This document shows positions 15,556 through 57,214 of a stretch of 64,000 nt of DNA, piece by piece (position 1 is the first letter of the stretch; every line of letters starts with the position of its first letter). This stretch comes from Basidiobolus meristosporus CBS 931.73 (Eukaryota; Basidiobolomycota; Basidiobolomycetes; Basidiobolales; Basidiobolaceae). Location of the stretch: assembly GCA_002104905.1 (NCBI GenBank), contig MCFE01000160.1, positions 62,001-126,000 of the forward strand, written 5' to 3'. The notes under the pieces were generated by a model. The model saw only the letters and a list, made by a program, of their open reading frames with translations. It was not told the DNA's origin and did not search any database. The position numbers and the translations under genes were made by a program.

Positions 15556-16292
15556 TGTGGTGGTGTATAAGTCCAAGGGAGAGATAGATCCAGCACTTCT
15601 CAAGTATTTTGTGTGTGGGGTGTTCACTGAGTGCAATTACCTCTGGCAAAAGCTTGCTAGGAATACCTGGGTTCTGTCTCCAATCTAATGTGATGGGGAA
15701 AAAAGCCACAAGCTTGTCAAGGGAAAACTATTGAGCTACAATCCTCAACTTAATTGATCTCTTAACAAAAGTATGTGCTTGGTTCAGCATCTATTGAGAG
15801 GACAGTGTACTAAAGCTTCCAAAGTCAAAGCCACTGTAAACTCCACTAGCAGGGACTTGATAAGAATGCAGCTGTGGTCAATAGTTAAAAAGACAGAAAA
15901 GTATCTTTGCCTCTACAAGAAGAAACTTGGGAAGGAATCAAATATACTAAAAGATACCTACTCTGAGTATTCCTCACAAGTAGTGCCTCCAAGGTCAGTT
16001 GGCTGTCAACATGTTTTCCTGGGAGTGTCCTGTGGTCTGGGGTTGGAATCTCAGGTAGCAGTAGTAAGTGATCATGTGACTAGGTCATGTGACATGTGGC
16101 TACCATATATGGCATGGGACTGCATAAATTCTAATGGGAAGCTTCTATTGAATGTTCCATTGTGTAATCTTGACTTGGAGCTTTCAACAAGTTGCTTGAA
16201 TGTAGCAGAACTTTCTAGAAGAAACTGGGATTTCCTCACTGACTTGATTTGGCTAGATAATTGCAGACTGGGGATGTCATGTGAGCATGACA
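15556..16292 (-). repeat. 3' LTR of chromodomain gypsy element
   Basis: Read on the minus strand it begins TGTCATGCTCACATGAC immediately after a purine tract (16293-16308, AAAAGGGGAGAATAG) and ends TACACCACCACA. Its first half in plus orientation (15556-16060) is very similar to 28661-29170, the outer solo LTR, so these LTRs are related. Its other half (16060-16292) matches 23085-23312, the opposite LTR. Confidence 0.75.
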
Positions 16293-16948
16293 CTATTCTC
16301 CCCTTTTGAGGGGCTCTCCTCAAGCTTTTGGCTTTGGCTTGTGGGGTATGTCTGGTGAAATGGCACTACTAGATCTTGGCAGTTTGTTAGGCTTGCTGCT
16401 GGTTCCCAGGTTTGATCATTTGGGCTGTTACCCACCCAATCTACTAGATAGTGAAGTTGGGATCTGATGTACTTTGAGTCCAACACTTGCCAAACTTTAA
16501 ACTCTTCTTGTTTGGCCACTTGAATGGCTGGGGGATTTGCTGGGTGCCGGTTGGGTAGAGTACTTTCATGGAATGGCTCTAGGAGGGATACATGGGATGT
16601 ATCATGAGTTTTCATACTTGGTGGCAATTGTAGTTGGTACACAGTTGGACTAATTTTCTTCTTGATCTTGGATAGACCTAATTTCTTGTAGTCTAATTTG
16701 TCATAAGGGTGGCTGGTAGCAATGTTTCTTCTCAAGAGCCATACTGAATCTCCTTCATTAAGCTTGTGGCTAGGCTGCCATTTGTTGTCTGCAAACTTCT
16801 TGTACCCCTCAAGGGCTAAGGATAGTTCTTTCTTGAGTGTTTCTTGCATTTCCAGAATTGTTGATGCTTGTTCAGCTGCTGGGGGGCTCATAGGGTTGGT
16901 TGGGATCTGAATATCAAATTGCAGATGAAACCATAATTTGCATAGCAT
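16277..16948 (-). pseudogene. Integrase C-terminus and chromodomain
   Basis: 223-residue stretch: FADNKWQPSHKLNEGDSVWL, KLDYKKLGLSKIKKKISPTV (integrase C-terminal domain) and, near the end, IRSQLHYLVDWVGNSPNDQT followed by WEPAASLTN, which is a chromodomain (family pattern YLVKWxGxxxxxxTWEP). Chromodomains target chromovirus integration to methylated histone H3. The ORF ends inside the purine tract next to the 3' LTR. Confidence 0.85.
16293..16308 (-). other. Polypurine tract
   Basis: On the minus strand AAAAGGGGAGAATAG lies directly before the LTR start TGTCATG. This is the expected plus-strand primer position for reverse transcription and fixes the LTR boundary at 16292. Confidence 0.6.
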
Positions 16949-17426
16949 GGAGTGAGACCTGTTGCACTATGACAACAGTTGTTTTAGGCAAATTCTGCAA
17001 GTGGTAGCAGTTGGGTCCAGTTGTCTTGTTGATAATTAATATAGCACCATAGGTATTGCTCAAGGATCTGGTTGATTCTCTCTGTCTGGCCATCGGACTG
17101 TGGATGAAAAGTGGTTGAGAGCTTGACTTGCACACCAAGATATTGCATGAAGTGTTTCCAGAATTTTGATATGAACTGGGGTCCTCTGTCCAATACAATG
17201 TCACTGGGGATACCATGGAGCTGGAAATGTTCTTGATTACTAAGTGGGCAATCTCCTTAGCAACTATGTTCTTTGAGCAGGGAATAAAGTGAGCCATCTT
17301 GGTGAGCCAATCTGCCACCACTAGGATTGAATTGAACTGGTTTGATTTTGGGAGGTCAGTGATGAAGTCCATTGAAATAGACTTCCATTGCTGGTCAGGG
17401 ATTGGCAAGGGGTTGGAGAAGTCCAT
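16914..17426 (-). pseudogene. Gypsy integrase core, frameshifted
   Basis: 17426-17230 reads WKSISMDFITDLPKSNQFNS and VVADWLTKMAHFIPC, the first catalytic Asp strand. A frameshift follows; in the next frame 17193-16984 reads [20 protein letters not shown] (second Asp, DRGPQF) and [19 protein letters not shown] (catalytic Glu in QTERxN). All three catalytic acidic residues are therefore present but split over two frames. Confidence 0.85.
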
Positions 17427-17682
17427 ATGGCTGGTGTCTAGCAGATTTTACACTGTTACCTGTATCACAGGATTTCCCTGTTTTATACCTGGTCTATAGG
17501 TAATGACAAAGTCAATGCTGGACAGGAAGTGGGACCATCTGGCTTGTCTCTGGTTTAGTACTTATGAGGTGGTAAAGTACTCAAGGCTCTTGTGGTCACA
17601 GAAGATCTTTATCTTTTGGGCTGAACTGTCAAGGTAGTGTCTCCATTATTCAAAGGCAACAATGATTGCTAGTAGTTCCTTA

Positions 17683-17946
17683 TCATAGATTATCATAGTT
17701 TACTTCAGCTGGAGTAAATTTCTGGGAGTAGAATGCAATAGGGTGTAGTACACTCTTGTCATTGCACTGGGAAAGGATTGCACCGAGTGCAAAGTCCAAG
17801 GCATCAATTTCTATGATGAAAGGTTTCTTAAGGTCAGGGTAAGCAAGCAGCGGAGCATACAGGAGGGATATCTTGATGGAATTGAAGGACTTGGACTGTT
17901 CCTCATTCCAGGCAAAGGGCAGATTCTTCTGGGTGAGCTTTGTCAA
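17683..17946 (-). pseudogene. Gypsy RNase H, N-terminal part
   Basis: Reads LTKLTQKNLPFAWNEEQSKS, then PFIIEIDALDFALGAILSQ (catalytic Asp; family usually has ETDASDFAxGAVLSQ) and HPIAFYSQKFTPAEVNYD. It continues the polyprotein interrupted by the element at 17954-20081. A stop follows NYDNL where the catalytic Glu region begins. Confidence 0.8.
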
Positions 17947-18696
17947 GGGAGTAGACTTGTTTCATTGTACTGTGCCAGGGTGCACGGTGTGATCCGCAGT
18001 CTCTAAGAACAATTGGTTGCAATATTGTGGCTACCAGTAGGCAGGATTGCTCTTGGTCAATTTTGCACCATGTGGGACAATCTTGCACACTATGGCACAA
18101 TCTGACACAATGAGGTTGGCACAAATGATTGTGCCCACTTGTAATGTTTACATCATGTGCATAATTAGATGCCGCTATTATGGTAGGTAAAATCTGGTAA
18201 TTGGATATGATTCTTTAACAAAAATGGAAATAAATGCGTATCACACTATAAACTACACCAACACCTACCATTTTGGTTACCATCACTCCAATTGGATGGA
18301 ATCTCAGTGGTTAATTGGTCCAACAGTATCCTGAAGCTTTCAGCCCCCAATTGGCTCTTTGACCAATACACAAGCTACTTGATTTGCCTTCAAATATCCC
18401 ATTTTGCCCATTAAGCAAATAAATACCTGATCTTAGTGATTGGACAAGGTGTCATAGCTAGCATGCAACCAATTGTATGGGTGCAAATCAGATCAAATGG
18501 CTGCACTGGTGTCACAGATGATGTATACATATGCAGGGTGTTTATATATAGGGGTCCTGTCTCAAATGTGAGACAACCTTAACATTGCCTATATCAAAAA
18601 CTTAGTGATCACTTACTTGCAATGACTTGATGCAGATTGCAAAAAAAAATGAGTTGTTTGGATCATTACAAATAATAGCAATCCAATGCAATTGCA

Positions 18697-19812
18697 TCAT
18701 CCTCTCCTAGGCTTTTTTCTCACAGGGATTACTACTGAAGCATTTGGTAGTGATTCACTTTGCACACCTAAACTACTTTCTTGTTGACTATCCTCTTGGC
18801 TACTTGTGTATTTGTAGTCAGTATTTTGCCTCCTAGTTGGTGAGTGCAATGCTGCAGCTTGGCCATGCTGAATTGCTCCTGATGATGCAACTGAGCCAGC
18901 CTTCAGTGCTATGTGCTGACGCATTCCTTTACATGCCAAAGGCTCTGGTGGTGGAGGCACTTCATGTGGGTCATCGTCAGTCAGTTCACCAGAAGAAACT
19001 TGCTGATGGTCAGATGTAATGGCATGCGCAGATACAACTTGATGCGCTGGCATGGCCCTTGGCTGAGTTTAATGTGATGCTGCTTGTTGACACAACTTGG
19101 CCCACTCCAATGTACTTGTGTCTTTCTGAGCAGTTTGGTGGGTTCTGGTAGTTTTGCTCTAAAGCGTGTGTGTTGACCCAATACACATTGAGTTAATGCT
19201 GAGTGCTCTTGCAAAGGGTGTTGGTGTAGTTTGGACTGACGTGCGCTGGCATGCTGACGTTGCAAGGGATGGTAAAGAATGCAGCAAGGTGTGCTAACAC
19301 AATCTAGACAATGTTGCTTGCGGTCTATACTCTTCCTCTTGAAGCTCACCTTCTGACTCCTCAAGGTATTCACTAACCCTCTGTCTAATACTTTGCAACT
19401 GTTGCCTGGATCAGTTCTGTGGATATTGCTCTTGGAAGCCACTTAGCTCTACTAATATATCATGTAATACATTAGTCATTTGTGGCAAAAACTCATTCAA
19501 AATCTCTTTGGTTCCCAAAGTTGAGGCACAAACAGACGTGTCCGGCCTATACTGAGCAACTTGCGCGCAAAATTGCTCCCGCGTGGCTTCCTCATCAAAT
19601 CCCCTCACTCTCAGCTCATTCTTGATTTCAATACTTGTATTGTTAAATATCTTCTTAAATACATCCACTGACATCATGATGTAGAAATGATGCCACAGCT
19701 TTCTACTCAGGTTCTTCCATCTCTGTTGACTCTCCAAGGTATCTAGTTCTGCTAGATTAATGAGTAGTGCCCAAATATCTGTATGAAGGCTCATCATAGA
19801 CACTTGGCCCAT
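18697..19812 (-). pseudogene. Unrecognised ORF in the TIR element
   Basis: Three minus-strand open pieces follow one another in different frames: 19812-19411 (LESQQRWKNLSRKLWHHFYI, EILNEFLPQMTNVLHDILVE), 19442-18981, and 19053-18697 (SSGELTDDDPHEVPPPPEPL and, at the end, NASVVIPVRKKPRRG before a stop). The first piece is helical in character, the last is acidic, proline/serine rich with a basic KKPRR tail like a nuclear localisation signal. I do not recognise a family. Together they would make a protein of about 370 residues if the frames were once joined. Confidence 0.4.
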
Positions 19813-20010
19813 ACAGCAGAATAGGTAACATAGTTAAGATGCTCATCAATGCACAATTTATTCATACAAGAAGACATCCACTAAGAGAAATGTGTCTGGA
19901 GCATTATGAAGATTAAATAAAGCAAGGAAGGCAGTCCTCTGAGCAACATAAGTAAGATTGAGTAAAATTTCCAGTAACTATATCATACCACTGACATGAT
20001 TGTAGAAATT

Positions 20011-20056
20011 ATAGTGCCAGATAGTGCCAGATCAATCTGGCACTATCTGGCACTAT
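20011..20056. repeat. Perfect 22-bp palindrome, 2-nt loop
   Basis: 20011-20032 (ATAGTGCCAGATAGTGCCAG plus AT) is exactly complementary to 20035-20056, with CA as loop. Each arm is itself a tandem duplication of a 10-mer. It lies just inside the right inverted repeat of the TIR element and is expected to form a strong hairpin in single-stranded DNA or RNA. Confidence 0.85.
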
Positions 20057-20117
20057 GTGGCATGATCCAATGGAACAAGTCTAGTGACTATAGGAGTTTT
20101 CCACAACTGGAGAGCTT

Positions 20118-20738
20118 CTACTTCTTGGGGTCCATTCTTGTTCCATTTGAGCTGATATAATAACCTAAGAACTCAACCTCTTTCTGGTCAAACTCACATT
20201 TCTCTAGTTTGGCATAGAGGCCAGCAGTGTCAAGTTTGGTCAAGACTTTCTTGACATGAGAATTATGTTCTTCTTGGGTCTTGGAGTAGATCAAGATGTT
20301 GTCAAGGTAGATAACCACAAATTGGTTAAGGTATTCACAGAATATGTCATTCATCAGGTGTTGAAAGACAGCTGGGGCATTGGTGAGACCACATAGCATA
20401 ACTTTATATTCAAAGTGACCATATCTTGTTCTGAATGCAGTATTCCATTCATCACCAGGCTTGATCCTGACAAGGTTATATGCTCCTCTGAGGTCAATCT
20501 TGGTATATACTTTGGCAGCAGAGAGTTGATCCAACAGGGTGTTAATCAGGGGCAAAGAGTACCAGTACTTGATTGTGATCTTATTCAGTACACAGTAGTC
20601 TACACACATTCTTAGGGCACCATCCTTTTTTTTGACAAAGAGGATTGGGGTGCCAGCTGGGGACTTAAAGTGCTGAATAAAACCTTTCGGGAGGTTTTCT
20701 TGAATATAGTCATGGAGTTCTTTCAACTTGGGTTGCAA
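20118..20738 (-). pseudogene. Gypsy reverse transcriptase
   Basis: 206-residue RT with the full set of motifs: GTPILFVKKKDGALRMCVDY, KIDLRGAYNLVRIKPGDEWN, GHFEYKVMLCGLTNAPAVFQ, then VVIYLDNILIYS, and LGYYISSNGTRMDPKK. In the catalytic loop the usual YLDD reads YLDN, so one metal-binding Asp is changed to Asn (a G-to-A type change). With this change and the downstream insertion the enzyme cannot be active. Confidence 0.85.
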
Positions 20739-20804
20739 GAGGCTGTAAATAAGACCAAAGGTGGGGTCCTTCCTTCTTCAAGGTCAATGAGACAATCATA
20801 GGGT

Positions 20805-21635
20805 CTATGGGCTGGGAGTATTTGGCTTTCTTCTTGTCAAAGTCATGGCAAACTCTTGATACTTGGCAGATATTCCATTGGAGGGTGTTCCTTCAGTGAT
20901 GGTGGGCTTCTGGGTCTGGGGTAGCTTGGAAATGGATACTTCTTTACCTGAAAAATCAGATTGCTTCATGGAGTTGACATGGTGTATTCTGGGAAATGCC
21001 AGGTTTTTGGTCTTCCAGTTGATTGCTGGGTTATAGTGACTAAGCCATGTGCTTCCATGGACTATGGAGTAGTGGAGAGAGTTGATAATGTTGAAGGCTA
21101 GCTTCTTGTGGTGACCAGTACTGGACAGCTGGAGTAGACACATCTCATGGGTAACAGCACCAGAGGAGAGGGATCTTCCATTAATAACTTCTACTTGGAC
21201 AGGACAGGATCTCAGGACAGTGGGGATTTTGTACTTCTGGGCAAATGACTGGTCAATGCAACAGAAGGAAGCACCAGAGTCTATGAGAACAAGGGCACAG
21301 ACAGGACTGGATTCAGGAATGTGGATGTTGACATGCATTCTTAAGGACTGGAAGGACTTGGTAGCATATGATGTTTCTTCAATGTGCTGAATTTCATTGG
21401 AGGGTCCAGTTGCAAGCCTGTCATTGTAACTGGATATTGGAGTTTCCCAATAATTCAGGAGAAGATTGTTCACTGGATAATTGCAGGAGTTTGAAGCTGG
21501 ACTTGTTGTTAGGACAAGACTTGGCAAAGTGGCCTGGCTGGCCACAGTAAAGGCAGAGGTTTGCCTGCTGACATCTAGATCTTTCTTCTTTTGGGAGTTT
21601 CTTATATCTAGCACTGTCAATTTGCATAGGATCAT
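20805..21635 (-). pseudogene. Gypsy aspartic protease region
   Basis: 276-residue open stretch. The catalytic triad reads ALVLIDSGASFCCIDQSF (residues about 112-130), followed by CPVQVEVINGRSL, the flap region, and IVHGSTWLSHYNPAINWKTK, the usual ILGxxWLxxxNPxIDW strand. The C-terminal end leads towards RT (YQEFAMTLTRRKPNTPSP region with broken frame at 20800-20740). Confidence 0.8.
21421..21627 (-). pseudogene. Gag zinc knuckle
   Basis: Reads LCLYCGQPGHFAKSCPNNKS, a perfect CCHC knuckle (C-x2-C-x4-H-x4-C), the nucleic-acid-binding end of gag. It lies between gag and the protease and overlaps the protease ORF in another frame, which points to a frameshift (programmed or by decay) between gag and pol. 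Confidence 0.85.
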
Positions 21636-24725: not shown

Positions 24726-27330
24726 ATGGACAAGACTACTTCAATTCAGCACCATAAGAGAAGAGAAAAAAGACCATGTGGCTATTGTAGCAAGCCACTC
24801 AGCCATGAAGCATGCAGACAGCATAGGAAGTATTACAAGGATCATGGCCAGTATTTTAACACATAAGTCATATTTGACCATTCATTGGTCACTACTGTAC
24901 TAACATTATCTTGCCAGCCAGTTGATACTTCTATATCAGCACCTAGCTATCTTTGTCACTCTATACAAACTGAGTCAGGTGAGTTTGTGATGCTTTTAGG
25001 CTCACCTCAGCCTTCTGAATATGGCATGCAGAGTGATAGCTCTGACAAAGAAGATCAACTGATGGATTGTGAGCCTATCTCCCTTAACAACAGTACCACA
25101 TATGAGCCAGGTCAAATCCCAATATGCAATGAGACAACACCAGTTGAAATAAATGCCAAGGATACATTATGGAGCCAAGTGAGCCCAGTAATATATCTAC
25201 TGTTGAATGATGTAATGTTGTGGCTGGAGAAGTGGCGTGTTTCCACTAATATCAGTAATGGGAGCTTTGAGGATTTATTACTACTTCCTGCCAAAATCAT
25301 ACCAGGATGCAAATTACCATGTACATTTTGCAAGTGGACAAGTGTCATGCAGCTGGTAACATATGAACCAGAGACTGCCCTGATTCCAGCATGTGTTAGC
25401 AGTTGCATGGCATTCACATCCAAAAGTGCTACCATTGCAATGTGTTCAAATTGTCAGGAATCCACTGCCATTGAGGGCAAACATTGTTCACACTAAATAT
25501 ATATTACAGTAATACCCCATATAAAGAAGCTATTGCAGTGTAACGAATATTGCAAGGCTATGCAGTCCCACACTCAGTATCAATCAGGCACAAACATATC
25601 CAATATATTTGATGGCCAACATTGCAAACAGCAAAGAAGCAAGGGCTACTTTGAAGGTATGTATGACCATGCCTTTGCCTTAGCACTTGAAGGATTCTCA
25701 TTAAACAAGTACTCAACTAGCAAATTCTGCTGGCCACTGATTCTCATCAATCTGAATCTGCCACCCATCTTACAGCATCAGAGCAATAATCTGATGGTAG
25801 TCTCACTAGTATCTGGGCCTAAATTACCATCCAACCTGGATGGCTACCTGCATCCATTGCTGGATGAGTTTTGTATGCTTTCCAGTGGGATAATAGTAAA
25901 TGGCCATCATATAGAAGCGCAAATTATTATCTGCATTGGAGATACCCCAGCCATCAGCAAGATGGCAGGTTTTTCTGGGCATTACAGATGGTATTACTGT
26001 CAAATGTGTGCAATCAAAGGAATATACTTCATAACTCAGACACATTATTATTACCCAAACACCAGCACTAAGATCATCATCTTGCCATGGAGAGAACGTA
26101 GAGTAGTCAGCATGCAATTGCAGCAAAGTTGGCAAGCTATAAGCCATTGGCCAGAATATGGAACCAATTGGAAACTGAATATATCAAAGATAGAGGGTAT
26201 CTGTTGGAGCAAAAGCTTTCCACTGGGAGCAATGCATTTGCTGTTCAACAATATCCCTATACTGATGGGCAAGTTGCACATGGGGCACTTCCAGCTATAT
26301 GAGCCTTTCAAGATACCAACAAAACTTGAAAGAATTGGCAAGATATTACAGAGTATCTGTTACTGTAAGTACTACTCATGGGCTCCAATTAATACTCATA
26401 TGCATATGCAACAACACAAATGCAAAGACTGGATGAACTGGATATGTATTTATTCAAGTAGTGCTCTAAAGCCATTGCTACCAAGAGTACATTGGAAGCA
26501 TTGGGAGTCATATGTGGGCATTGTAGGAATATTTATCCATATGCAGATGACCAATGCCAACTTGATGCATCTACAGCTGTTCTGCCCAAAGTTTGTGACA
26601 GGATTTGAGCGGCTATACTACAAACATGAAGCTGAACATGTAGATCTCTGCTGCCACTGAATCCATTTTCTACTCCATCTTGCATGGTGTGTGAAGAATA
26701 TTGGGCCTTGCTTCACCTTTTGGGAGTTTCCTATTGAGCAGATGTGTGGGGAAATAGGAAGACAAGGAAAGCTGTAGGTACTACCATATACCAATCTCAT
26801 CAATAATACTACCTTCAAGTTGGTCATGGATGTGATGAGTTGCCAGATGGAGGACAGCCAGGAAGAGGTGAAAAAACTGAGGACAGATGTGCACATGCAG
26901 ACACCTATGCCTATGGCATTAAGAAGCAAAGCAGCCACAACACATGGGTAATCAGTTAAGTAATGCAAAGTTGGGTTGGTGTAACAAGCAACTAATTTTT
27001 ATTAGGAAAACTCTACCAAGGTATGCTGGATTTTCTTGGTCACAAGCCAACTTCTACACAATTCAGTACAGAATTCACAGAAACAAGAGCCAGAGTGCAC
27101 CTATCAGGGGGACTAGAATCCAGCAGGGAGAAGGAATATACTGGCTCAATACTAAGAAGTTCTTTGTGGATATTTATGAGGTATTCATGGCAAAAGTGGC
27201 AACTTTGCAAGTATCACACTAAAAAGCTGTAAAGTTGAGGTGATAGAAGTATGTCTATTGTGGCAGGTGTGCATGCTTGTAGGGGTTAGTAAGCAGGAGG
27301 CCAAAGTTTTTTTTGATTTGAACTATATGT
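24726..27330 (+). pseudogene. Plavaka/Tnp2-like transposase, copy T3
   Basis: N-terminal Cys/His segment from ATG 24726 (KRPCGYCSKPLSHEACRQHR), stopped at about 24863; a middle open part 24885-25496 ending in paired cysteines (MCSNCQ); the main open part 25533-26660 (375 aa); then broken frames to 27330. The main part carries the Tnp2/Plavaka hallmarks: FALALEGFSLNK, CWPLILINLNLPPIL, LPSNLDGYLHPLLDEF, IGDTPAISKMAGFSGHYRWY with YCQMC, and later IGPCFTFWEFPIEQMCGEIG. The first catalytic-type Asp (LDGF in T4) reads Glu here. The C-terminal tail is at 27090-27200 (EGIYWLNTKKFF). Inactive by stops and this change. Confidence 0.7.
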
Positions 27331-27931
27331 GAAATACCCAAGGTAGTAGTGGGTAGGCCAATAAAGTGGTGTGATTCTACAGTGGAATATATGAATTGCA
27401 CAAAGGGAAGTAGAAAAAGAAACAACCATTTGGTATATCCCTATGAGAAATTATTGAGATGATCCCATAAAAAGGCCATCACAAAGTTAATGTCCCGTGA
27501 CTGAGAGGTACTGATCTTATCAGGACTCTCTCCAAAGACTGTTGAAAAATAATTGCACCCCAGATTTCACAAAAAACTTTGTCAAAATCTTTCATCACAA
27601 CAATGTATAAGTGACTTTTGATTGGTTCCCTGCCAACTCGCTCACTTTCTGATCCTGGACACTCTATTGCCTCCTATGTTTGTGTGAATTGATTGGCTAT
27701 TGCCTCTTTTTCTCACTCCTTACTTCCTGACTCAACTGTTTCTCTTACTTTTCATGCGTACCAATGGACTTATTTTTGTTAAAACTTCAGTTGTACCTCA
27801 ATTGCCAATTGTATAGGCCTATACAAGTCTCTATACCCAACACTAACATTAAGCCCAACCCCATACTCAACAAGTAACTCCATTAAAATCCACCACTCAA
27901 TAAGTATATCTGCTGTAATGCTCTGGTTCCA
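27331..27931. other. Non-coding junction between T3 and T4
   Basis: No ORF of note. 27461-27530 (GATCCCAT...GAGGTACTGATC) matches 15486-15545, the left flank of the gypsy element, by eye. 27441-27457 (CCCTATGAGAAATTATT) resembles, inverted, the recurrent motif ACCAAATTATTTTTCATAGG of the subterminal repeats downstream. Confidence 0.5.
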
Positions 27932-28660
27932 CTACTTTGGCAGGAACCCAACAGCTTTATGCCACTGTTCATTCACTGGTTCCCACACGTCCTGGTCTTC
28001 AGCCAGCACTGCAAGGTCTAGCTCCTCATCTGCCAGTCTTTGCAATAAATCCTTGCAATATTCCAGTGCATTTTCTTAAGCACTGCTCTTGAAGAAGTGC
28101 TGCAACCTCTTGGTGTGCCTATTAATGTTCCAAAACTCCCCTGAAGGCATTGTGATAGTCTTTTGAGCTCTTGAGGTTGTAGCCTTGTCTGTCAGTGGGA
28201 TCTTCACTCTGTCAACAATGGAGCCTGTGGAGGCTGTGGAGGCTGTGATAGACAAATTGCCTTTTGCAGCAAACTCATCTACCTTGCTGGAGTGTAGCTC
28301 AACTAGCAGTGCTTCCAACTCTTGTGAAAACAGCTGTTTTCTTGTTGGTAACTCTTCTTGGCTATGATGGGATTCAGTCTGTTCCTGCTTGTGGCGTTAA
28401 TTGGCAAGAACTGCAGTTTTTTTGGATGCCTCCCTGTCTCAGGCTTGGGTGGACATTTTTCCCTTTGCCTTTTCCTTTATCACTGCCAGGTCTTTCACTG
28501 GTACTTTGTCTGAGTGCTTCTTGTAAAGAACTACGTTTTCTCCTGGATAAATTCTGCTCTGACGCATCTGTTTTGGCCTGCTTGTCCCTTGCTGGCACTC
28601 TTCTGGTAACCTGACGTTTCTTTTCAGCTTGTTTTGAGCTCTCAACTGTAGTTGTGACGG

Positions 28661-30537
28661 TGTGGTGGTGTATAGGTCCAAGGGAGTGATACGTCCAACA
28701 CTTCTCAAGTGTTTTGTGTGTGGGGTGTTCACTGGGTGCAATAACCTCTGGCAAACGCTTGCTAGGAATACTTGGGTTCTGTCTCTAATCTAATGTGAAG
28801 GGGAATAAAGCCACAAGCTTGTCAAGGGAAAACTATTGAGCTACAATCCCCAACTTAGTTGGCGTCTTAACAAAAGGATGTGCTGGGTTCAGCGTCCTTT
28901 GAGATGACAATGTACTAAAGCTTCCAAAGTCAAAACAGCTGTAAACTTCACCAGCAGGGACTTGATAAGAATGCAGCTGTGGTCAATAGTTAAAAAGACA
29001 GAAAAGTATCTTTGCCTGTACAAGAACAAACTTGGGAAAGAATCAAATATAATAAAAGATACCTACTCTGAGTATTCCTCACAAGTAGTGCCTCCAAGGT
29101 CAGTTGGCTGTCAGCACGGTTTCCTGGGAGTGTCCTGTGGTCTGGGGTTGGAAGTTCAGGTAGCAGCAGGTAGCAGTGATCACACTAATCAACAAGTTGG
29201 TATATTGATAAAAGGGATGATGATTAACTGTTGAGGGATAGCCTCCCTTATATACTTTTCTCACTGGCTAAGTGATTACTAATCATGGTGTTCCAGAAGG
29301 TTCTGGATATCAATGGAAATCTTAATGACATCAGAATGACCTAAGAATGTTCTAAGTATGTGCCGGAAGGTTCCAAGAGGCACAGCATATCCAACCAATC
29401 AGGAGTCAGTATTCAAAACCTGTGTAACATAGGGATACCATATATGGTATGGAAATGGTAGGTATGGCAACACGGGTTGATCATGTGTCACGGGTACTGG
29501 CGCTGTGGTGGTGTAGAGGTACTCCTGGGAGAAGCTACACAACTCAAGGTGTGTGAGGTGTCTGATGGGTGCAATAACATCTGTGTCTAAACTGCTGGTG
29601 TCTTTGTCAATATGTCACTATGGTAAAAGCTCCTGCTTCTCTAGCTTCCTAGGTGCTCCAAGTGTCTCCAAAGGCCTCTGTGTGTCTTGTGCACTACCCT
29701 GAAAAGCTCCTTGATGGCAGGTCTGAGATGTACTGTTGAAGGCAGGTGCAGTGATCAACTGCTAATCAATAAGGTAGAAGTGTTACTAATAGAAGGGATG
29801 ATTTATTGATGAGGGATTGCTTTCCCTTAAATACTTTTCCTGATTGCCAAGTGATTACTAATGACAAGGTTCTAGAAGATTCTAGGTATCAGTGGAATTC
29901 TTGATGACATCACTATGAGCTAAAAATATGCCAAGAATGTCCTGGAAGGTTCTAAAAGGCACAGCACTCTCAACCAATCAGGAATCAGTAGTCTGAAACC
30001 TGTGCAACATAGAAATACCATATATGGTATTGAAATGGTAGAGATGGTAACACAGACCTAGGTCATGTGTCAAGGGTACTGACGCGGGTACTTGCCTTAT
30101 ATAGATGCATCTACTGATCACAAAGCTGAATAACATCTGGGATAACTAATGCTAATAACTAATCAGGGTAAACATCATATGGGGATAATACTGATAATAT
30201 GGGCAAAAGAAGAATGGGATAATACTGATAAGATAAAATATGGATAAGTATATCATAATGACTATATGAATAAACTTGTCTGTGGGAGGTATGTTTACCC
30301 TACCACAGCGCGGGTACTTGCCTAATATAGGAGCGCTTATAGCTAGTAATCTACATAAAGTGAGGGGTAACTTATGCAATAAGGTAAGCAGGTGTGGTAG
30401 TCAACTGGCTTATGGGATAGTACTGATTGGGTAAGACAAATGGGATAAAACTAAAATAAATGTAGTAGAGATATAGGGATGTAGAAAATGAGGGAATGAG
30501 CACATCTGTCAGTGGGTGTCACTGTCACCCCACTACA
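28661..30537 (+). repeat. Outer solo LTR in accessory gene T4
   Basis: Starts TGTGGTGGTGTATAGG and ends CCCCACTACA, flanked on both sides by ACGG (28657-28660 and 30538-30541), a 4-bp target duplication. About 1.07 kb once the inner LTR (29504-30307) is subtracted. Its first 510 bp match 15556-16060, and 29170-29500 resembles the second half of the 804-bp LTRs, so it links the two LTR types. The short ORF at 28962-29234 is an LTR sequence also found at 15861-16060 and is not a gene. Confidence 0.8.
29504..30307 (+). repeat. Inner solo LTR, 804 bp
   Basis: Starts TGTGGTGGTGTAGAGG and ends TTTACCCTACCACA, flanked by GCGC on both sides (29500-29503 and 30308-30311). It is nested in the outer LTR at a site that itself resembles LTR sequence (GGGTACTG-GCGC-GGGTACTTGCC). 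Nearly identical to 31854-32657, so both are recent compared with the relics around them. Confidence 0.9.
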
Positions 30538-31853
30538 ACGGGCTCCTGTAAAAGTGGCTGGTTTTTATCACTGCCAGATCCTTCACTGCTACTTTGACTG
30601 GGTGTTTCTTGAGTGGTACTATGCTTTTTCCTTGATAGATGTTGTGCTGGTGCATCCATGTCTGCCTGCTTGTCCTTAATTGGCACTCTTCCAGCTGCCT
30701 GATGTCTCTTTGACACTTGTCTGGAGCTTTCAGCCCTGCTTGTAATGGGCTCTTGAGGAAGCCACTGGTTTTTAGCCATGGCACCCTTGTTCTTCTGCCT
30801 TTAATACTTTCTGCTATTCTTAAGATACTTTCTTGGCATACCAATGCTGGCCCAAAATCCGTTTGCCTGTTTGAATCCAGGATAATGCTCATGGAACAAG
30901 TCAAGTGCATTCTGCTTGGCCTTGAGTTCCTGATGGTCCCATGGTATGCCAGCCTTAAGGTGATGGCATGCTAGACTTCTGACAGCCTCTTGTATATTAG
31001 CCCACTCTTCATTATTGCACTCAACGGCTTTACGGATCTTCAATGTCTTTTGATTTTTAGGCTTTGGTATAAACACCACATTGTCTCCCTCCCATGCTGT
31101 GATAGGTTTTTCTGTGGGCTTTATCTTTTGGCACTCTTGTTGTACTTCAAAGAGTGTACAGTGCTCCTCTGCTGTTACATTGGGAAATGGCTCAATTCAC
31201 GGCTGTGACATGGAGCTACTTGAGTTCCTTCATTGTAGCAAAGATACTGCTTTCTCTACCTGGGATATTGATTGCTCTACACATATTATCCGCTCATCCT
31301 GTTTCTGGACTACTTCCTGATTTCTCTGGGCCATTGCATCTATCCTATCAGCTACTGCATCTAATTGCTTCATTAATGCTTTGGTATGAGCTGACAACAT
31401 ACTTGCTAATATGGGTGGTGGTGATGTTATTGTGGCCACTTGCTGATCTTCAACAGAGGGTACTGCATTTGCTACATTCTCATCTGCCTGAGCATAACGG
31501 TCTGCTTGTGGCTCCACAGAGGTTCTCAATTGCCTACTTGACTGACAGCCTGAGGAGTCCGCATTATTACCTTCAATGGGCACACTGTCTACAGGGCTTT
31601 TTTTGGATGTAGCCCTGCTTGTTGCACTGAATGTCTGAGCAAGCTGTTGTCCAACTGTTCTTCTGTAGCCATCAGCAATGGGGTTTGGTTGAGAACCAGA
31701 CAACTTTGCTTTATTTTTTGGCAGCATATATTTGGAAGTGAGCCAAAGCAAAGGGGAAATAGTGTTACATATACATGTGTATGTGGTGCCACAACTTTAA
31801 TTATAATGCTTACTATGGCAGGTCATCATTGAATCTTACATTCATGTAGGCAT

Positions 31854-32657
31854 TGTGGTGGTGTAGAGGTACTCCTGGGAGAAGCTACACAACTCAAGGT
31901 GTGTGAGGTGTCTGATGGGTGCAATAACCTCTGTGTCTAAACTGCTGGTGTCTTTGTCAATATGTCACTATGGTAAAAGCTCCTGCTTCTCTAGCTCCCT
32001 AGGTGCTCCAAGTGTCTCCAAAGGCCTCTGTGTGTCTTGTGCACTACCCTGAAAAGCTCCTTGATGGCAGGTCTGAGATGTACTGTTGAAGGCAGGTGCA
32101 GTGATCAACTGCTAATCAATAAGGTAGAAGTGTTACTGATAGAAGGGATGATTTATTGATGAGGGATTGCTTTCCCTTAAATACTTTTCCTGATTGCCAA
32201 GTGATTACTAATGACAAGGTTCTAGAAGATTCTAGGTATCAGTGGAATTCTTGATGACATCACTATGAGCTAAAAATATGCCAAGAATGTCCTGGAAGGT
32301 TCTAAAAGGCACAGCACTCTCAACCAATCAGGAATCAGTAGTCTGAAACCTGTGCAACATAGAAATACCATTTATGGTATTGAAATGGTAGGGATGGTAA
32401 CACAGACCTAGGTAATGTGTCACGGGTACTGACATGGGTACTTGCCTTATATAGATACATCTACTGATCACAAAGCTGAATAACATCTGGGATAACTAAT
32501 GCTAATAACTAATCAGGGTAAACATCATATGGGGATAACACTGATAATATGGGCAAAAGAAGAATAGGATAATACTGATAAGATAAAATATGGATAAGTA
32601 TATCATAATGACTATATGAATAAACTTGTCTGTGGGAGGTATGTTTACCCTACCACA
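31854..32657 (+). repeat. Solo LTR, 804 bp, in T4 intergenic region
   Basis: Same ends and length as 29504-30307 with very few differences by eye. Flanks are GCAT (31850-31853) and GCGT (32658-32661): a 4-bp duplication with one CpG-type transition. Comparison with the empty site in T3 (24620-24640) shows that it landed between the divergent accessory and transposase genes of T4. Confidence 0.9.
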
Positions 32658-32757
32658 GCGTGATGTCTCAAATACAAGACTGTCTTAAGTTTGCATGAGT
32701 ATTGACCAAAATGTGATATAATAGCATTACGTTGTTGAACGTCAAACTGTTTGCCCC

Positions 32758-35446
32758 ATGGACAAGACTACTTTGACTCAACACCATAAGCAAAGAGAAA
32801 AAAGACCATGTGGCTATTGTGGCAAGCCTCTCAGCCATGAAGCATGCAGACAGCATAGGAAGTATTACAAGGATCATGGCCAGTGTTTTGCCACCCAAGT
32901 CATAATTGACCATTCATTGGTCACTACTGTACTAACATTATCTTGCCAGCTGGTTGATACTTCTATATTGGCACCTGGCTGTCTTTGTCACCTTGCGCAA
33001 ACTGAGTCAGGTGAGTTTGTGATGCCTTTAGGCCTACATCAGCCTTCTGAATATGGCATGTAGAGTGATAGCTCTGACAAAGAAGGTTCACTGATGGATT
33101 TTGAGCCTATCTCCCCTGACAACAGTACCACATATGAGCCCGGTCAAATCCCTATATGCAATGAGACAACACCTGTTGAGACAAATGCCAAGGATACTTT
33201 ATGGAGCCAAGTGAGCCCAGTAATCCATCTACTGGTGAATGATGTGATGTTGTGGCTAGAGAAGTGGCGCATTTCCACTAATATCAGTAATGGGGGCTTC
33301 AAGGATTTATTACTACTTCTTGCCAAAATCATACCGGGATGCAACTTGCCATGTACATGGTACAAGTGGACAATTGTCATGCGGCTAGCAACATATGATC
33401 CAGAGACTGTCCTGATTCCAGCATGTGTTAACAGTTGCATGGCATTCACATCCAAAAATGCTACCATTGCAATATGTCCAAATTGTCAGCAATCCACCAC
33501 CATTGAGGGAAACATTGTTCACATTCTGGATATATTCCAGTCATACCCCATCTGAGGAAGCTGATGCAGTCCGACAAATATTGCAAAGCTATACAGTACC
33601 GCACTCAGTATCAATCAATCTCAAACATATCCAATATATTTGATGGCAAGCATTACAAACAGCTAAGAAGCAAGGGCTACTTTGAAGGTATGTATGACCA
33701 TACCTTTGCTTTAGCACTTGATGGATTCTCATTAAACAAGAACTGTACCAGTAAATCCTGCTGGCCACTGATTCTCATCAATCTGAATCTGCCACCCATC
33801 TTATGGTATCAGAGCAATAATCTGATGGTAGTCTCACTGGTATCTGGGCCTGAATCACCGTCCAACCTGGATAGCTACCTGTATCCATTGCTGAATGAAT
33901 TTTTTATGCTTTCCAGTGGGATAATGGTAAATGGCCATCATGTAAAAGCGCATATTATTATCGGCATTGGAGATATCCCAGCCATCAGCAATATAGCAGG
34001 TTTTTCTGGGCACAATGGATGGTATTGCTGTCAAATGTGTGAAACCCAGGGGATTTATTCCATAACGCACACACATTATTATTACCCGAACACCAGCAAT
34101 AAGAACATCATCTTTTCACAGAGAGAACATACAGAAGTAGGCATACAATTGCAGCAAAGTTGGCAAGCTTTAAGCAATTGGCCAGAATATGGAATCAATT
34201 GGAAACTGGAGATACTTAAGATAGAAAGTATCTGTTGGAGCAAAAGCTTTCCACTGGGAGCTATGCATTTTCTTTTCAACAATATCCCTATACTGATGAC
34301 CAAGTTGTACATGGGGCATTTCAAGCGAAATGAGCCCTTTGAGATACCAGAGAAATTTAAAAAAATTGGCAAGATATAACAGAGTATCCACTACCCTAAG
34401 TACTTCTCATGGGCTCCAATTAATATACATACACATATATGACAATACAAATGCAAAGACTGGATGAACTGGATATGTATTTATTCAAGTGGTGTCTGAA
34501 GCCATTCCTACCAAGAGTACATGGGAAGCATTGGGAGTCATATGTGGACATTGTAGGAGTATTTATCCAGAAGCGGATCACCAATGCCAACTTGATGCAT
34601 CTACAGCTGTTGTGTGAGAAGTTTGTGATGGGATTTGAGTGGCTATACTGAAAACATAAAGCTGAATATGTAGATCTCTGCCGCTACTGTATCCATTCTC
34701 TACTCCATCTTGTATGGTGTGTGGAGAATATTGGGCCTTGCTTCACCTTTTAGGAGTTTCCTATGGAGCGGATGTGTGGGGAGATAGGAAGACAAGTCAA
34801 GTTGCTGGTACTACCATATCCCAATCTCATCAAGAATATTACCTTCAAGTCTGTCATGGATGTGATGAGTTGGCACATGGAGGACAGCTAGACAGAGTTG
34901 AAAAATACTGAGGACAAATGTGCACATGGAGACACCTATGCCCATGGCATTAAGAAGCTAAGCAGCCCCAATGTGTGGGTAATCAGTTAAGTAATGCAAA
35001 GTTGGGTTGGGTGCAACAAGCAATTAATTTTTATCAGGAAAACTCCACCAAGATATGCTGGATTTCTTGTGGTCACAAGCCAACTTCTACACCATTCAAT
35101 ATGGAGTTCACACAAACATAAGCCAGAGCCCCCCTATAAGGGGGACTAGGATCCAGCAGGGAGAAGGAATATATTGGCTAAATACCAAGAAGTTCTTTGC
35201 CAATATTCAGGAGGTATTCATGGCAGAAGTGGCATCAACCAAGCATATGCTTTCAAGATGTATATGCTACCAGCAGTACAAAGTATATGGCAACTTTGCA
35301 AGTATCACACTAAAAAGCCGTAAAGTTCAGGTGCTAGAAGTATGTCAATTGCGGCAGGTGTGCGCGTTTGTAGAGGTTAGTAAGCAGGAGGTCATAGATT
35401 TTTTTGATTTGAACTATATGTGGAATACCCAAGGTAGTAGTGGGTA
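32758..35446 (+). pseudogene. Plavaka/Tnp2-like transposase, copy T4
   Basis: Best copy of the family. 32758-33063: N-terminal Cys/His segment REKRPCGYCGKPLSHEACRQ with HRKYYKDHGQCF. 33094-33555: acidic linker and a segment with paired Cys (ICPNCQ). 33564-34379 (271 aa): LDGFSLNK (first Asp intact), CWPLILINLNLPPILWYQSN, ESPSNLDSYLYPLLNEFFML, IGDIPAISNIAGFSGHNGWY, CCQMC, then HFKRNEPFEIPEKFKKIGKI ending in TAA (34377). 34439-34920 in broken frames holds the FTFxEFPMERMCGEIG segment, and 35055-35447 the tail (RIQQGEGIYWLNTKKFFANI). One stop (TAG 33061) and several frame changes remain, so it is probably inactive, unless some gaps are introns. Family assignment rests on recalled Tnp2/Plavaka signatures. 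Confidence 0.7.
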
Positions 35447-35529
35447 AGCAAATAAAGAAAGGTGATTCTACAGTGGAGTATATGAATTGCACAAGGGGAG
35501 GTAGAAAAGGAAATACCATTTGGTAAATT

Positions 35530-36320
35530 GGTACTGTAGCATTATACAGAACCAGCAGCAGGCTGTCATATTGCCAAGAAACAGCCATCAAAGTCTTGCT
35601 GTGAGGCCGTCAAAATACCATCAAGTTGCTTGCCATATAAGGCAATTGGAAGTCCTGGCCAACTGGATCCACTTAAAATAGTAATAGAGTGCTGAAAGAC
35701 CGCAACAATAACATGCAAATATTGTCACAGCACCAATCAAAAGTTGTCAAGTTTTGTCCCTTTATTTGGCTGTAAAATTTGTAAAACACCGTCATGATCT
35801 CATTATAACATTGTCAGGAGGGTCACTAATTCAAAGCTGCTGTTATTATGAGGGTCTCTGAACAGGATCTTGATGGATGATCCAGATTGGATCCACCTCC
35901 AGGACCAAATTATTTTTCATAGGGATATTGGTATGGTTGCATTATACAGAACTAACTGTAGGCTGCCATACTGCTGTTATAATGCCATCAGAGTCTTGCT
36001 GTGAGACTGTTGAAATACCGTCAAGTTTTTATCATAAAAGGCAATTGGATGTCCTGGCCAGTTAGATCTATTTAAGTAGTTGTAGAGTGCAACAAGACCG
36101 CAACAATGCCATGCAATTATTGTCACAGGACCAATCAAATCTCATCAAGTTTTATAACTGTTTTTGGCAGTAAAATTAGCAAGACACCATTGTGTTTCTG
36201 CCATAAGATCAATAAGAGGTCACTAATTCCAAGCTGCAGGTGTTATGATGGTCTCTAAACAGGATTGTGACAGCTGATTGGGACTGGTCCCACCCATGGG
36301 ACCAAATTATTTTTTATAGG
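35530..36320 (+). repeat. Two tandem ~390-bp subterminal repeats
   Basis: Unit 1 runs from about 35530 (ATTGGTACTGTAGCATTATA) to 35927, unit 2 from about 35928 (ATTGGTATGGTTGCATTATA) to 36320. Each ends with ACCAAATTATTTTTCATAGG or a one-base variant. A third copy follows transposase copy T5 (38765-39160) and a fourth, inverted, follows T2 (about 6150-5850). No ORF. They are part of the transposon's 3' end. Confidence 0.75.
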
Positions 36321-36590
36321 GTAAGTGATTGGGAGAACAAATAGATTATATGGTTTTCACTTGATGATTAATTGAATGTAAAGGTATATGATCTTGGCAT
36401 AACAAACACTCAGAATAGGCTAAGGAAGGTCCAAGCGCATGTGTGCAAAGTTTGGGGCTGTTTGGACAACTTTGAGAATTTTCATGTTCTGGGTATCTGG
36501 TATTTTGGTGAAAAAATTCTAAGTGAGTCCCAACAAGGAATTTGGTCAATATTCCCTAGGATCTGAAGGTAATAATCTATGTGACTAGGT
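36321..36590 (+). repeat. Transposon 3' end segment, copy T4
   Basis: Resembles 39160-39430 by eye over the whole length (shared phrases GTGATT-GGAGAACA, AGGGTCC/AAGGTCC-AAG-GCATGT, TTTGGGC, GAATTTTCATGTTCTGG/GAATTCTCAGGTTCTGG). It follows the tandem repeats in both places, so it belongs to the element. No ORF. Confidence 0.55.
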
Positions 36591-38190
36591 TAGGTGAGTA
36601 TTTAGGTGGAATTACAAGTTTGTACATCACATATGACCCAGAGACTGTCCGGATACCAGCATGTGTTTACAGTTTCATGGCATCTACATCAGAAAATGAC
36701 ACCATTTCAAGTGGTCCAACTTGTCAGGAATCCACCACTATTGGGGGAAAGCATTGTTCACACTCTGGATGTATTCTGGTAATAACCCATCCAAAGAAGC
36801 TCATGCAGACCAACAAATATGTAAAGATATAGAGTACTGCACTTTGTATCAATCAAGTGCAAACATATCCTATATATTCAATGGCAAACACTAAAAACAT
36901 CTAAGAAGCAAGGGCTACCTTGAAGGTTTGAATTACCATGCCATTGCCTTAGCACTTGATGGATTCTCATCAATCAAGTACACTACCAGCAAATCCTGCT
37001 GGCCACTGATTCTCATAAACCTGAATCTTCTGCCTATCTTACTGTATCAGAGCAGAAATCTGATGGTAGTCTCACTGGTATCTGGGCCTATATAAACATT
37101 CAACCTGGATAGCTACCTGTATCCATTGCTGGATGAATCTTGTGTACTTTCCAGCAAGATAACAGTGAATTGCCATCATGTCAAAGTGCATATTATCATC
37201 TGCATTGGAGATACCCCAGCCATCTACACAATAGCCAGCTTTTCTGGGCAATATGGGCAGTATTGTTGTCAAATGTATGAGATCTAGGGGGCTTACTCCA
37301 TAACTCTTGCACATTATTTTTACCTTAACATCAACACTAAGAATATCATTTTCCCACAAAGAGAATGTAGAGAAGTCTGCATACAATTGCAGCAAAGTTG
37401 GCAAGCTATAAGCCATTTGCTGAAATGTGGAATAAATTGGAAACCAGAGATACTTAAGATGATGAGGATCTGTTGGCACAAAAGCTTTCCACTGGGAGCA
37501 ATGCATTTGCTTTTCAACAATATCCCTATACTGATGACCAAGTTGTACATGGGGCATTTCAAGCTAAATGAGCCCTTTGAGATACCAGAGAAATTTGAAA
37601 GAATTGGCAAGATATTACAGAGTATCTGTTACTGTAAGTACTTCTCATGGGCTCCAATCAACATTCATATGCATATACAACAATACCAGTGCAAGGACTG
37701 GATGAGCTGGATATGTATTTATTCAAGTGGTCTTCTGAAGCTCTTTCTACCAAGAGTACATTGGAAGCATTGGGAGTCATATATGGGCATTGTAGGAGTA
37801 TATCTCCAGAAGCAGATCACCAATGCCAACTTGATGCATCTTCAGCTTTTGTGCAAGGAGTTTGTTATGGGATATGAGTGGCTATACTGCAAGCATAAAG
37901 CTGAACACATAGATCTCTGCAGCTACTGTATCTATTCTCTACTCCATCTTGCTTGGCATATGGAGAATATTGGGCCTTGCTTCACCTTTTGGGAGTTTCC
38001 TATGGAGCGGATGTGTGGGGAGATAGGAAGACTAGTCAAGTTGCAGTTACTAAAATATCCCAATCTCATCAAGAATATTACGTTCAAGTCTGTCATGTAT
38101 GTGATGAGTTGGCACATGGAGGACAGCCAGGAAGAGTTGGAAAATACTGAGGACAGATGTGCACATGGAGACACCTATGCCTAAGGCATT
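36590..38190 (+). pseudogene. Plavaka-like transposase, copy T5
   Basis: 5'-truncated copy: it begins within the middle of the transposase (YDPETVRIPACVYSFMAST, 36620) and lacks the N-terminal Cys/His part and the accessory gene. Its best open part is 37387-38184 (265 aa): CGINWKPEILKMMRICWHKS, HFKLNEPFEIPEKFERIGKI, MSWICIYSSGLLKLFLPRVH, HWKHWESYMGIVGVYLQKQ, and IGPCFTFWEFPMERMCGEIG. The upstream catalytic part (36900-37380) is broken by stops. The tail block follows at 38380-38640. Confidence 0.65.
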
Positions 38191-55622: not shown

Positions 55623-57214
55623 ATGTCCATCGATCAACTCATAAGGAATTCTGAAGAGAAGCCTTGGCTGGTTTTAAAGTTTGGCGGAACTAGCATTGGT
55701 AAATTTCTGGAATCAATTACCTCCACTATCGTACGCCAGGCACTCAAAACCCACAGAGTAATCATTGTTTGCTCCGCACGTAGCGGTAATACCAAATCTG
55801 CCGGCACTACCAGCCAACTGATCTCAGCTGCAGAGAGCGTGCTTCATCCCAAGTCTGCCAATCACCTACAGATTCTCAACAATCTTATGGAGGATCATCT
55901 GATTCATGCGCGGGAGTCTATCTTCAACACCTCTATTCTTGAGAAGCTGGAGAAGGATATCACCCAAGAATGTCTGAAGCTTCAAGGATTCCTTGATGCA
56001 CTTCAAGTAATCGGGGAGGTTTCAACGAAGTCCAAAGATCTGATTATTGGGCTGGGTGAAAAGCTCGCTTCCCTGCTTGTTGTTGCTTCTCTGGAAGACT
56101 GCTCTATCTCTTCGCAATTGGTGTGCCTTGACAAGATTATCGACAAGCACTTCGACGAGGCCAACCTGAATGAAGGGTTCTATGACTATCTCTCTTTAAA
56201 GTTCTCCGAGAAGATACATGCCTGTGATGGTTCCATCCCGGTTGTGACTGGCTATTTTGGCCCAGTACCCGGAGGAATTTTGCAAAGTATTGGTCGAGGC
56301 TATACAGATTTGACTGCGGCCTTGTGTGCTGTTGGTATTCGCGCAGAGGAGCTTCAGATTTGGAAAGAAGTCGACGGGATATTTACAGCGGACCCCCGCA
56401 AAGTTCCCAACGCACGACTTCTGAAAATCATTACTCCAGATGAAGCTGCTGAACTCACCTACTACGGCTCTGAAGTCATTCACCCCTTTACCATGGACCA
56501 AGTGATTCATGCAAAAATCCCCATTCGCATCAAAAATGTCCAGAGCCCAGACGGCCTGGGTACCATGATCTTCCCGGACAGTAACCAGAAGGGGGATTAC
56601 TCCCCTCACTCACCACAGGTGTTGCTAGCCAATGGATATCTCCCTGACCTTTCTCGGAGACACCCTACTGCGGTGACCATCAAAGAGGACATATTCGTAC
56701 TGAATGTACACTCGAATCGCAAGTCGGTATCTCATGGCTTTTTTGCGAAGATCTTCTCTATCCTGGACAGCTACGGCATCCCCGTCGATGTGATTGCTAC
56801 TAGCGAAGTCCATGTGTCTATGGCACTTGGAACAAGCACCTGCGAGCTTCATTTGAACAGCGCTGTCAAGGAGCTTTCACAGTTCGGGACAGTGGATATC
56901 TTAAGAAACATGGCTATTCTCAGCCTCGTTGGAAAGCAGATGAGAAACATGGTTGGAATTGCCGGAGCAATGTTTACCAGCCTTGCTAAAGCAAATATCC
57001 TTTTTATTCATTATCTGCGGCTCGACCAACCAATCATTCCATTAATACTTTAACTCGCTCTTTACATATTAACATTGAAATGATTTCCCAGGGAGCATCC
57101 GAAATCAACATCTCCTGTATTCTCTCAAGGAAACACGCAGACAACGCACTTCGAGTAGTTCACGACAGTTTGTTGGCGAATGTCGATTACAGTGAGTTGC
57201 ACGGGAGTATTTAA
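55623..57214 (+). CDS. HOM3: Aspartokinase (aspartate kinase)
   Basis: Two exons, 55623-56994 and 57066-57214, giving 506 aa. It phosphorylates aspartate, the first step to threonine, methionine and isoleucine. Motifs: LVLKFGGTSIGKF (ATP-binding KFGGTS, residues 19-24), IIVCSARSG, SIGRGYTDLTAAL, EVDGIFTADPRKV (kinase domain) and tandem C-terminal ACT domains (VHVSMALGTSTC; then AMFTSLAKANINIEMISQGA, SEINISC), the usual site of threonine feedback. ATG 55623 (MSIDQLIRN) gives the family's length; the frame upstream (from 55581) is leader. The continuous frame runs off at 57053 in the middle of the last ACT domain. The family end is restored only by removing 56995-57065, which starts ATATCC and ends AC (see separate entry). 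Fungal monofunctional type, cytosolic. Confidence 0.93.
56995..57065 (+). other. Candidate U12-type AT-AC intron in HOM3
   Basis: 71 nt. The 5' end reads ATATCCTTTTT (U12 consensus ATATCCTTT), the branch-like motif TACTTTAAC (57046-57054) matches TTCCTTAAC at 7 of 9 positions with the branch A 12 nt before the end, and the 3' end is TTTAC. Removing it joins GCA A to AT ATT AAC, giving AKANINIEMISQG, exactly the aspartokinase ACT phrase. No GT-AG pair in this stretch restores that frame. There is no polypyrimidine tract of the usual length before the 3' end, as expected for the minor class. Confidence 0.75.

Follow-up and report, generated by a model that had tools for sequence, protein, structure and literature searches.

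The aspartokinase locus examined here raises two questions: whether a 71-nt segment that interrupts its reading frame is an AT-AC intron of the minor (U12) class, and which spliceosome would remove it. The gene lies on the forward strand of a 64,000-nt stretch of Basidiobolus meristosporus CBS 931.73 DNA, hereafter the window. Its frame opens at Met 55623 and runs into a stop codon inside 56995-57065 when that segment is retained. Without the segment, the gene encodes a 506-aa aspartokinase in which the AA_kinase and ACT domains are both intact, as the first-pass annotation had proposed for the gene's identity. This spliced product is identical at 506/506 residues (100%) to the annotated aspartate kinase of B. 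meristosporus CBS 931.73, which means that the public gene model uses the same AT-AC junction. Exon 1 (55623..56994, +) begins with Met1 and ends one base into the Asn codon of AKAN, and exon 2, as delimited by the enumeration of splice pairs, covers 57066..57214 (+) including the stop codon; the junction is in phase 1 and splits the Asn codon as A|AT. The next-best matches of the spliced protein are other Basidiobolus proteins, followed by those of Coemansia and relatives. The gene had initially been attributed to an ascomycete, an assignment that has to be withdrawn: the host belongs to the Basidiobolomycota in the NCBI taxonomy, outside the Dikarya, and this placement together with the full identity to the B. 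meristosporus protein rules out an ascomycete or other Dikarya origin. A search for ITS/5.8S gave one site, on contig C1281 with one mismatch (L014), on which this assignment does not draw.

The 5' splice site of U12-type introns follows the consensus RTATCCTTT, and a TCCTTRAC-like branch site near the 3' end is a further feature of the class. The segment at 56995..57065 (+) reads ATATCCTTTTTATTC...AATACTTTAACTCGCTCTTTAC, beginning with AT and ending in AC. Its 5' splice site, ATATCCTTTTT (56995..57005, +), agrees with the consensus, a branch-site motif TACTTTAAC lies at 57046..57054 (+) and the 3' splice site AC at 57064..57065 (+), so that the 5' end, branch motif and terminal AC described in the first-pass annotation are all present in the sequence. 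We enumerated in-frame splice pairs of at least 30 nt with GT-AG, GC-AG, AT-AC, AT-AG or GT-AC ends between 56901 and 57160. Only 56995-57065, one of 121 such pairs, keeps the conserved ACT phrase AKANINIEMISQG, in agreement with the earlier claim that removal of exactly these 71 nt restores this phrase and the C-terminus of the family. An alternative GT-AG junction had been named as an outcome that would speak against the AT-AC reading, and all three GT-AG pairs damage the C-terminal region, with 23, 29 and 31 residues removed or changed. The AT-AC alternatives 56997-57073, 57010-57065 and 57013-57065 lose or gain few residues (504, 511 and 512 aa), which counts against a unique reading of the junction; none of the three begins with ATATCC. 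The 56995-57065 segment has AT-AC ends, one of the two terminal pairs of the class (AT-AC or GT-AG), and its removal restores the coding frame. Taken together, the 5' splice site, the terminal AC, the restored frame and the annotated product argue that, of the three B. meristosporus aspartokinase genes, this one almost certainly contains a true AT-AC intron of the U12 type at 56995-57065, for which we propose removal by the U12 machinery with AT-AC ends.

The branch site was also considered in the context of the whole genome, in which ATATCCTTTTT occurs 93 times compared to 53 for a reversed control. We examined all 92 sites other than that of the aspartokinase intron (8 loci and 84 regions) for a TCCTTRAC motif within a stretch of 40-150 nt that terminates in AC, the A of the motif lying approximately 9-13 nt ahead of the final base. 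A perfect motif (8/8) was properly placed before AC at 14/92 sites, among which there are three near-identical locus pairs, while shuffled sequences gave a mean of 0.15 and a maximum of 1. With at least 7/8 positions matching, the count rose to 25/92 (shuffles: mean 3.4, maximum 9). In the aspartokinase intron itself, ACTTTAAC matches TCCTTRAC at 6/8 positions and places the A 12-13 nt ahead of the final base, in keeping with a U12-type branch site but weak on its own. At this 6/8 level, 48/92 of the other sites qualify against a shuffle mean of 23.5, and the branch motif alone is therefore no proof. It is the reading frame, together with the annotated product, that carries the case for the intron. 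TCTTTAAC, which is similar to the aspartokinase branch motif, was found in 4 of the 26 matches listed.

The first-pass annotation had further suggested that the genome may keep a minor spliceosome, and had proposed a search for its snRNAs and specific proteins. An Rfam family scan of the 64-kb window gave no match, and the Rfam models for U11, U12, U4atac and U6atac were run on the 89.0-Mb assembly. All four snRNAs were found. U11 scored 76.8 bits and was detected at two loci, and U6atac scored 63.2 bits, placing it in its family (RF00619, cut-off 33). U12 (46.9 bits) and U4atac (43.4 bits) both fall below the Rfam gathering cut-off of 53, and these sub-threshold scores are a point against the minor-spliceosome reading. 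In each of the four snRNA searches, 0/14 control genomes were positive, although this is a weak control. The two U11 loci (L012 687-820 and L013 1501-1634) lie on different contigs and are identical, as are no fewer than 221 nt upstream of them and 487 nt downstream, reflecting either a recent copy or uncollapsed haplotypes.

The predicted pairings fit U11 and U12 to the intron, and U4atac to U6atac. The 5' end of U11 is predicted to form 8 contiguous pairs with the aspartokinase 5' splice site (-6.7 kcal/mol), and U12 to pair with TACTTTAAC at -6.3 kcal/mol, leaving one bulged A. Counted along the predicted structure, this A is position 57052, and not 57053, the A lying 12 nt from the end that had been singled out earlier. 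For U4atac and U6atac, stem II is predicted to comprise an uninterrupted run of 13 pairs plus two others (-23.4 kcal/mol), and stem I 7 pairs (-10.0 kcal/mol). Compared by eye to the Rfam consensus, stem II is changed on both sides, with g10 replaced by A in U4atac and C by U in U6atac, a two-sided change that would be as expected of a working U4atac/U6atac pair.

The search for minor-specific proteins covered U11-48K, PDCD7 and CENATAC and found homologues of all three. The PDCD7/U11-59K homologue consists of one piece, scoring 26.3 bits alone and 32.5 bits with its neighbours at a cut-off of 27; it has one stop within the matched stretch, and both this stop and the low score of the piece alone count against the minor-spliceosome reading. 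The CENATAC/CCDC84 homologue was recovered as three pieces on C436, the contig that also holds the finger of the U11-48K homologue. No control genome (0/14) was positive for PDCD7 or CENATAC, and one (1/14), that of Sulfolobus acidocaldarius, was positive for the U11-48K finger. Compared with human U11/U12-48K, the finger gave an E-value of 8.9e-6 and a second stretch of the locus one of 1.3e-6. A gametocyte-specific factor was a somewhat better match to the finger query (3.9e-7), the first eight residues of this query being from the wrong frame, whereas the 48K protein was the only match of the second stretch. The suggestion that the genome keeps minor-spliceosome genes is consequently supported by four snRNAs and three specific proteins.

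Removal by a working minor spliceosome is the most likely fate of the intron, judged from these sequences. U11 together with U11-48K would recognize ATATCCTTTTT, and U12 would pair with TACTTTAAC with the branch A bulged. The U4atac/U6atac.U5 particle would then join, U6atac would replace U11 and the intron would be excised with its AT-AC ends. In animals and plants, U12-type AT-AC introns have an ATATCCTTT 5' splice site and a TTAAC-type branch site approximately 12 nt before the terminal AC, and the aspartokinase intron resembles them in both its ATATCCTTT 5' splice site and the position of its branch site.

The intron is also of the same species and class as those counted in a 2023 survey (PMC10639083), excerpts of which give 249 minor introns (0.554%) for B. 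meristosporus, the highest density in fungi, and describe an snRNA search that relied on these four Rfam models as well. In the same excerpts, genes with minor introns tend towards greater length and intron density; the coding sequence of the window copy, by comparison, requires no intron besides 56995-57065. Since minor introns are already reported as abundant in a host outside the Dikarya, the surprise initially attached to this locus, a minor spliceosome retained within the Dikarya, falls away. Judged by the survey, the aspartokinase intron belongs to a familiar class, in a species already noted for such introns. It is ordinary for its true host, the claim of a minor spliceosome in an ascomycete stands corrected, and what interest remains lies in an unconfirmed lead concerning U6atac.

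The sole U6atac that we found (L010 1501-1634, minus strand; G000:C779:39963-40096), the predicted partner of the aspartokinase intron, sets this system apart from those of animals and plants: where U6atac base-pairs with the 5' splice site, the Rfam consensus has AAAGG and this RNA has AGUCG. It lacks the complementarity provided by AAAGG, in which human GG14/15 face CC5/6 of the 5' splice site and the U's that follow: aligned with UCCUUU in the local register, AGUCG gives ||xx:|, with no G opposite C6. The best predicted U6atac helix with the aspartokinase 5' splice site weakens from -7.1 kcal/mol for the consensus to -2.8 kcal/mol for the actual sequence, the latter in a different register on the GAGAG stretch of U6atac. 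For a shorter consensus 5' splice site, the corresponding values are -6.4 and -2.0 kcal/mol, and an artificial site carrying GACT from +6 to +9 is predicted to pair with U6atac at -8.3 kcal/mol. A second, canonical U6atac was not detected with the Rfam model, which gave one match after scoring 46 of its 3836 first-look candidates, and a search for GGAGAGAANGTTAGCANNCCCC with up to two mismatches returned only the known locus (reversed-pattern control, 1).

Other introns keep ATATCCTT despite the AGUCG of U6atac, and the U4atac helices are intact. A pattern fixing only ATATC, CCTTAAC and AC gave 156 matches, fewer than the 190 of its reversed control, so that the raw count shows nothing and the informative feature is solely the composition at +6 to +8. 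CTT occupies these positions in 41 of the 100 matches listed among the 156, and CTTT stands at +6 to +9 in 28 of the 100; neither GAC at +6 to +8, the U6atac complement, nor GACT occurs among these 100. The matches listed include a few 5' ends counted with two 3' ends and some repeats; counted as distinct 12-mers, CTT is present in 28/82 and GAC in 0. No run at +10 to +12 that would extend the U6atac pairing stood out by eye in 28 rows. A compensating change in the introns was rejected, given that CTT is kept and GAC or GACT is absent among 100 of the 156 matches.

There are three ways to account for this: a different mode of contact between U6atac and the site, a canonical copy absent from the assembly, or an error in the copy found. 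A possible, if doubtful, extension of the first of these is that the minor spliceosome of Basidiobolus runs with a U6atac that forms no Watson-Crick helix with the 5' splice site and would hold it mainly via the GAGAGA box and proteins, ATATCCTTT being kept because U11 and U11-48K read it. According to excerpts of a study using suppressors in transfected cells (PMC4980772), U6atac GG14/15 acts as partner to CC5/6 of the 5' splice site, and near wild-type rescue of the CC5/6GG mutant needs both the U11 GG6/7CC and the U6atac GG14/15CC suppressors. If true, the Basidiobolus arrangement would represent a case in nature where two readings of the 5' splice site are uncoupled that are both required in the human-cell assay. 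A confirmed change in U6atac would provide a species that keeps the site without the U6atac complement, making it testable which reading its conservation serves. At the level of titles and abstract openings, we found no published account of an altered Basidiobolus U6atac; two papers name both Basidiobolus and U6atac, PMC10639083 and one on a springtail genome in which each term appears once.

The altered 5' splice site-pairing segment of U6atac and the imperfect branch site could be taken to favour a U12-like intron that is taken out by the major (U2) spliceosome. Some AT-AC introns are removed in this way. Here, however, all four minor snRNA genes and three specific protein genes are present, the U4atac/U6atac helices remain paired, with both sides changed relative to the Rfam consensus, and the 5' splice site fits U11, making removal by the major spliceosome very improbable. 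Still less credible is a frameshift, pseudogene or sequence error in place of an intron, a reading that could draw on two paralogues without the intron and on the long branch (length 1) of the window copy, but that has against it the restoration of the conserved family end by removal of exactly 71 nt, a 5' splice site, branch motif and AC that are all in place, and intact kinase and ACT domains in the spliced product.

Finally, we compared the three aspartokinase genes of the genome. The two paralogues (C976:24534-26045 and C381:11148-12632) are uninterrupted, intronless frames, and the U12 intron is therefore private to one of three copies; that two paralogues lack it is a point against the U12-intron reading. 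In a tree of 19 hand-picked rows, including 17 of 120 listed proteins and one further paralogue read from the genome, the intronless paralogues are joined to two B. ranarum proteins, with support of 100/98 and 90/70. The window copy lies on its long branch at an open fork within a set of 9 rows and is at most 64% identical to any other row. One of the intronless paralogues shares its contig. Sequence comparison with aspartokinases of solved structure contributed nothing further. Elsewhere in the window, 16277-21635 (-) and 25533-38184 (+) contain retroelement-like ORFs (reverse transcriptase, chromodomain-like) and repeated transposase-like ORFs, as judged by eye from their translations.
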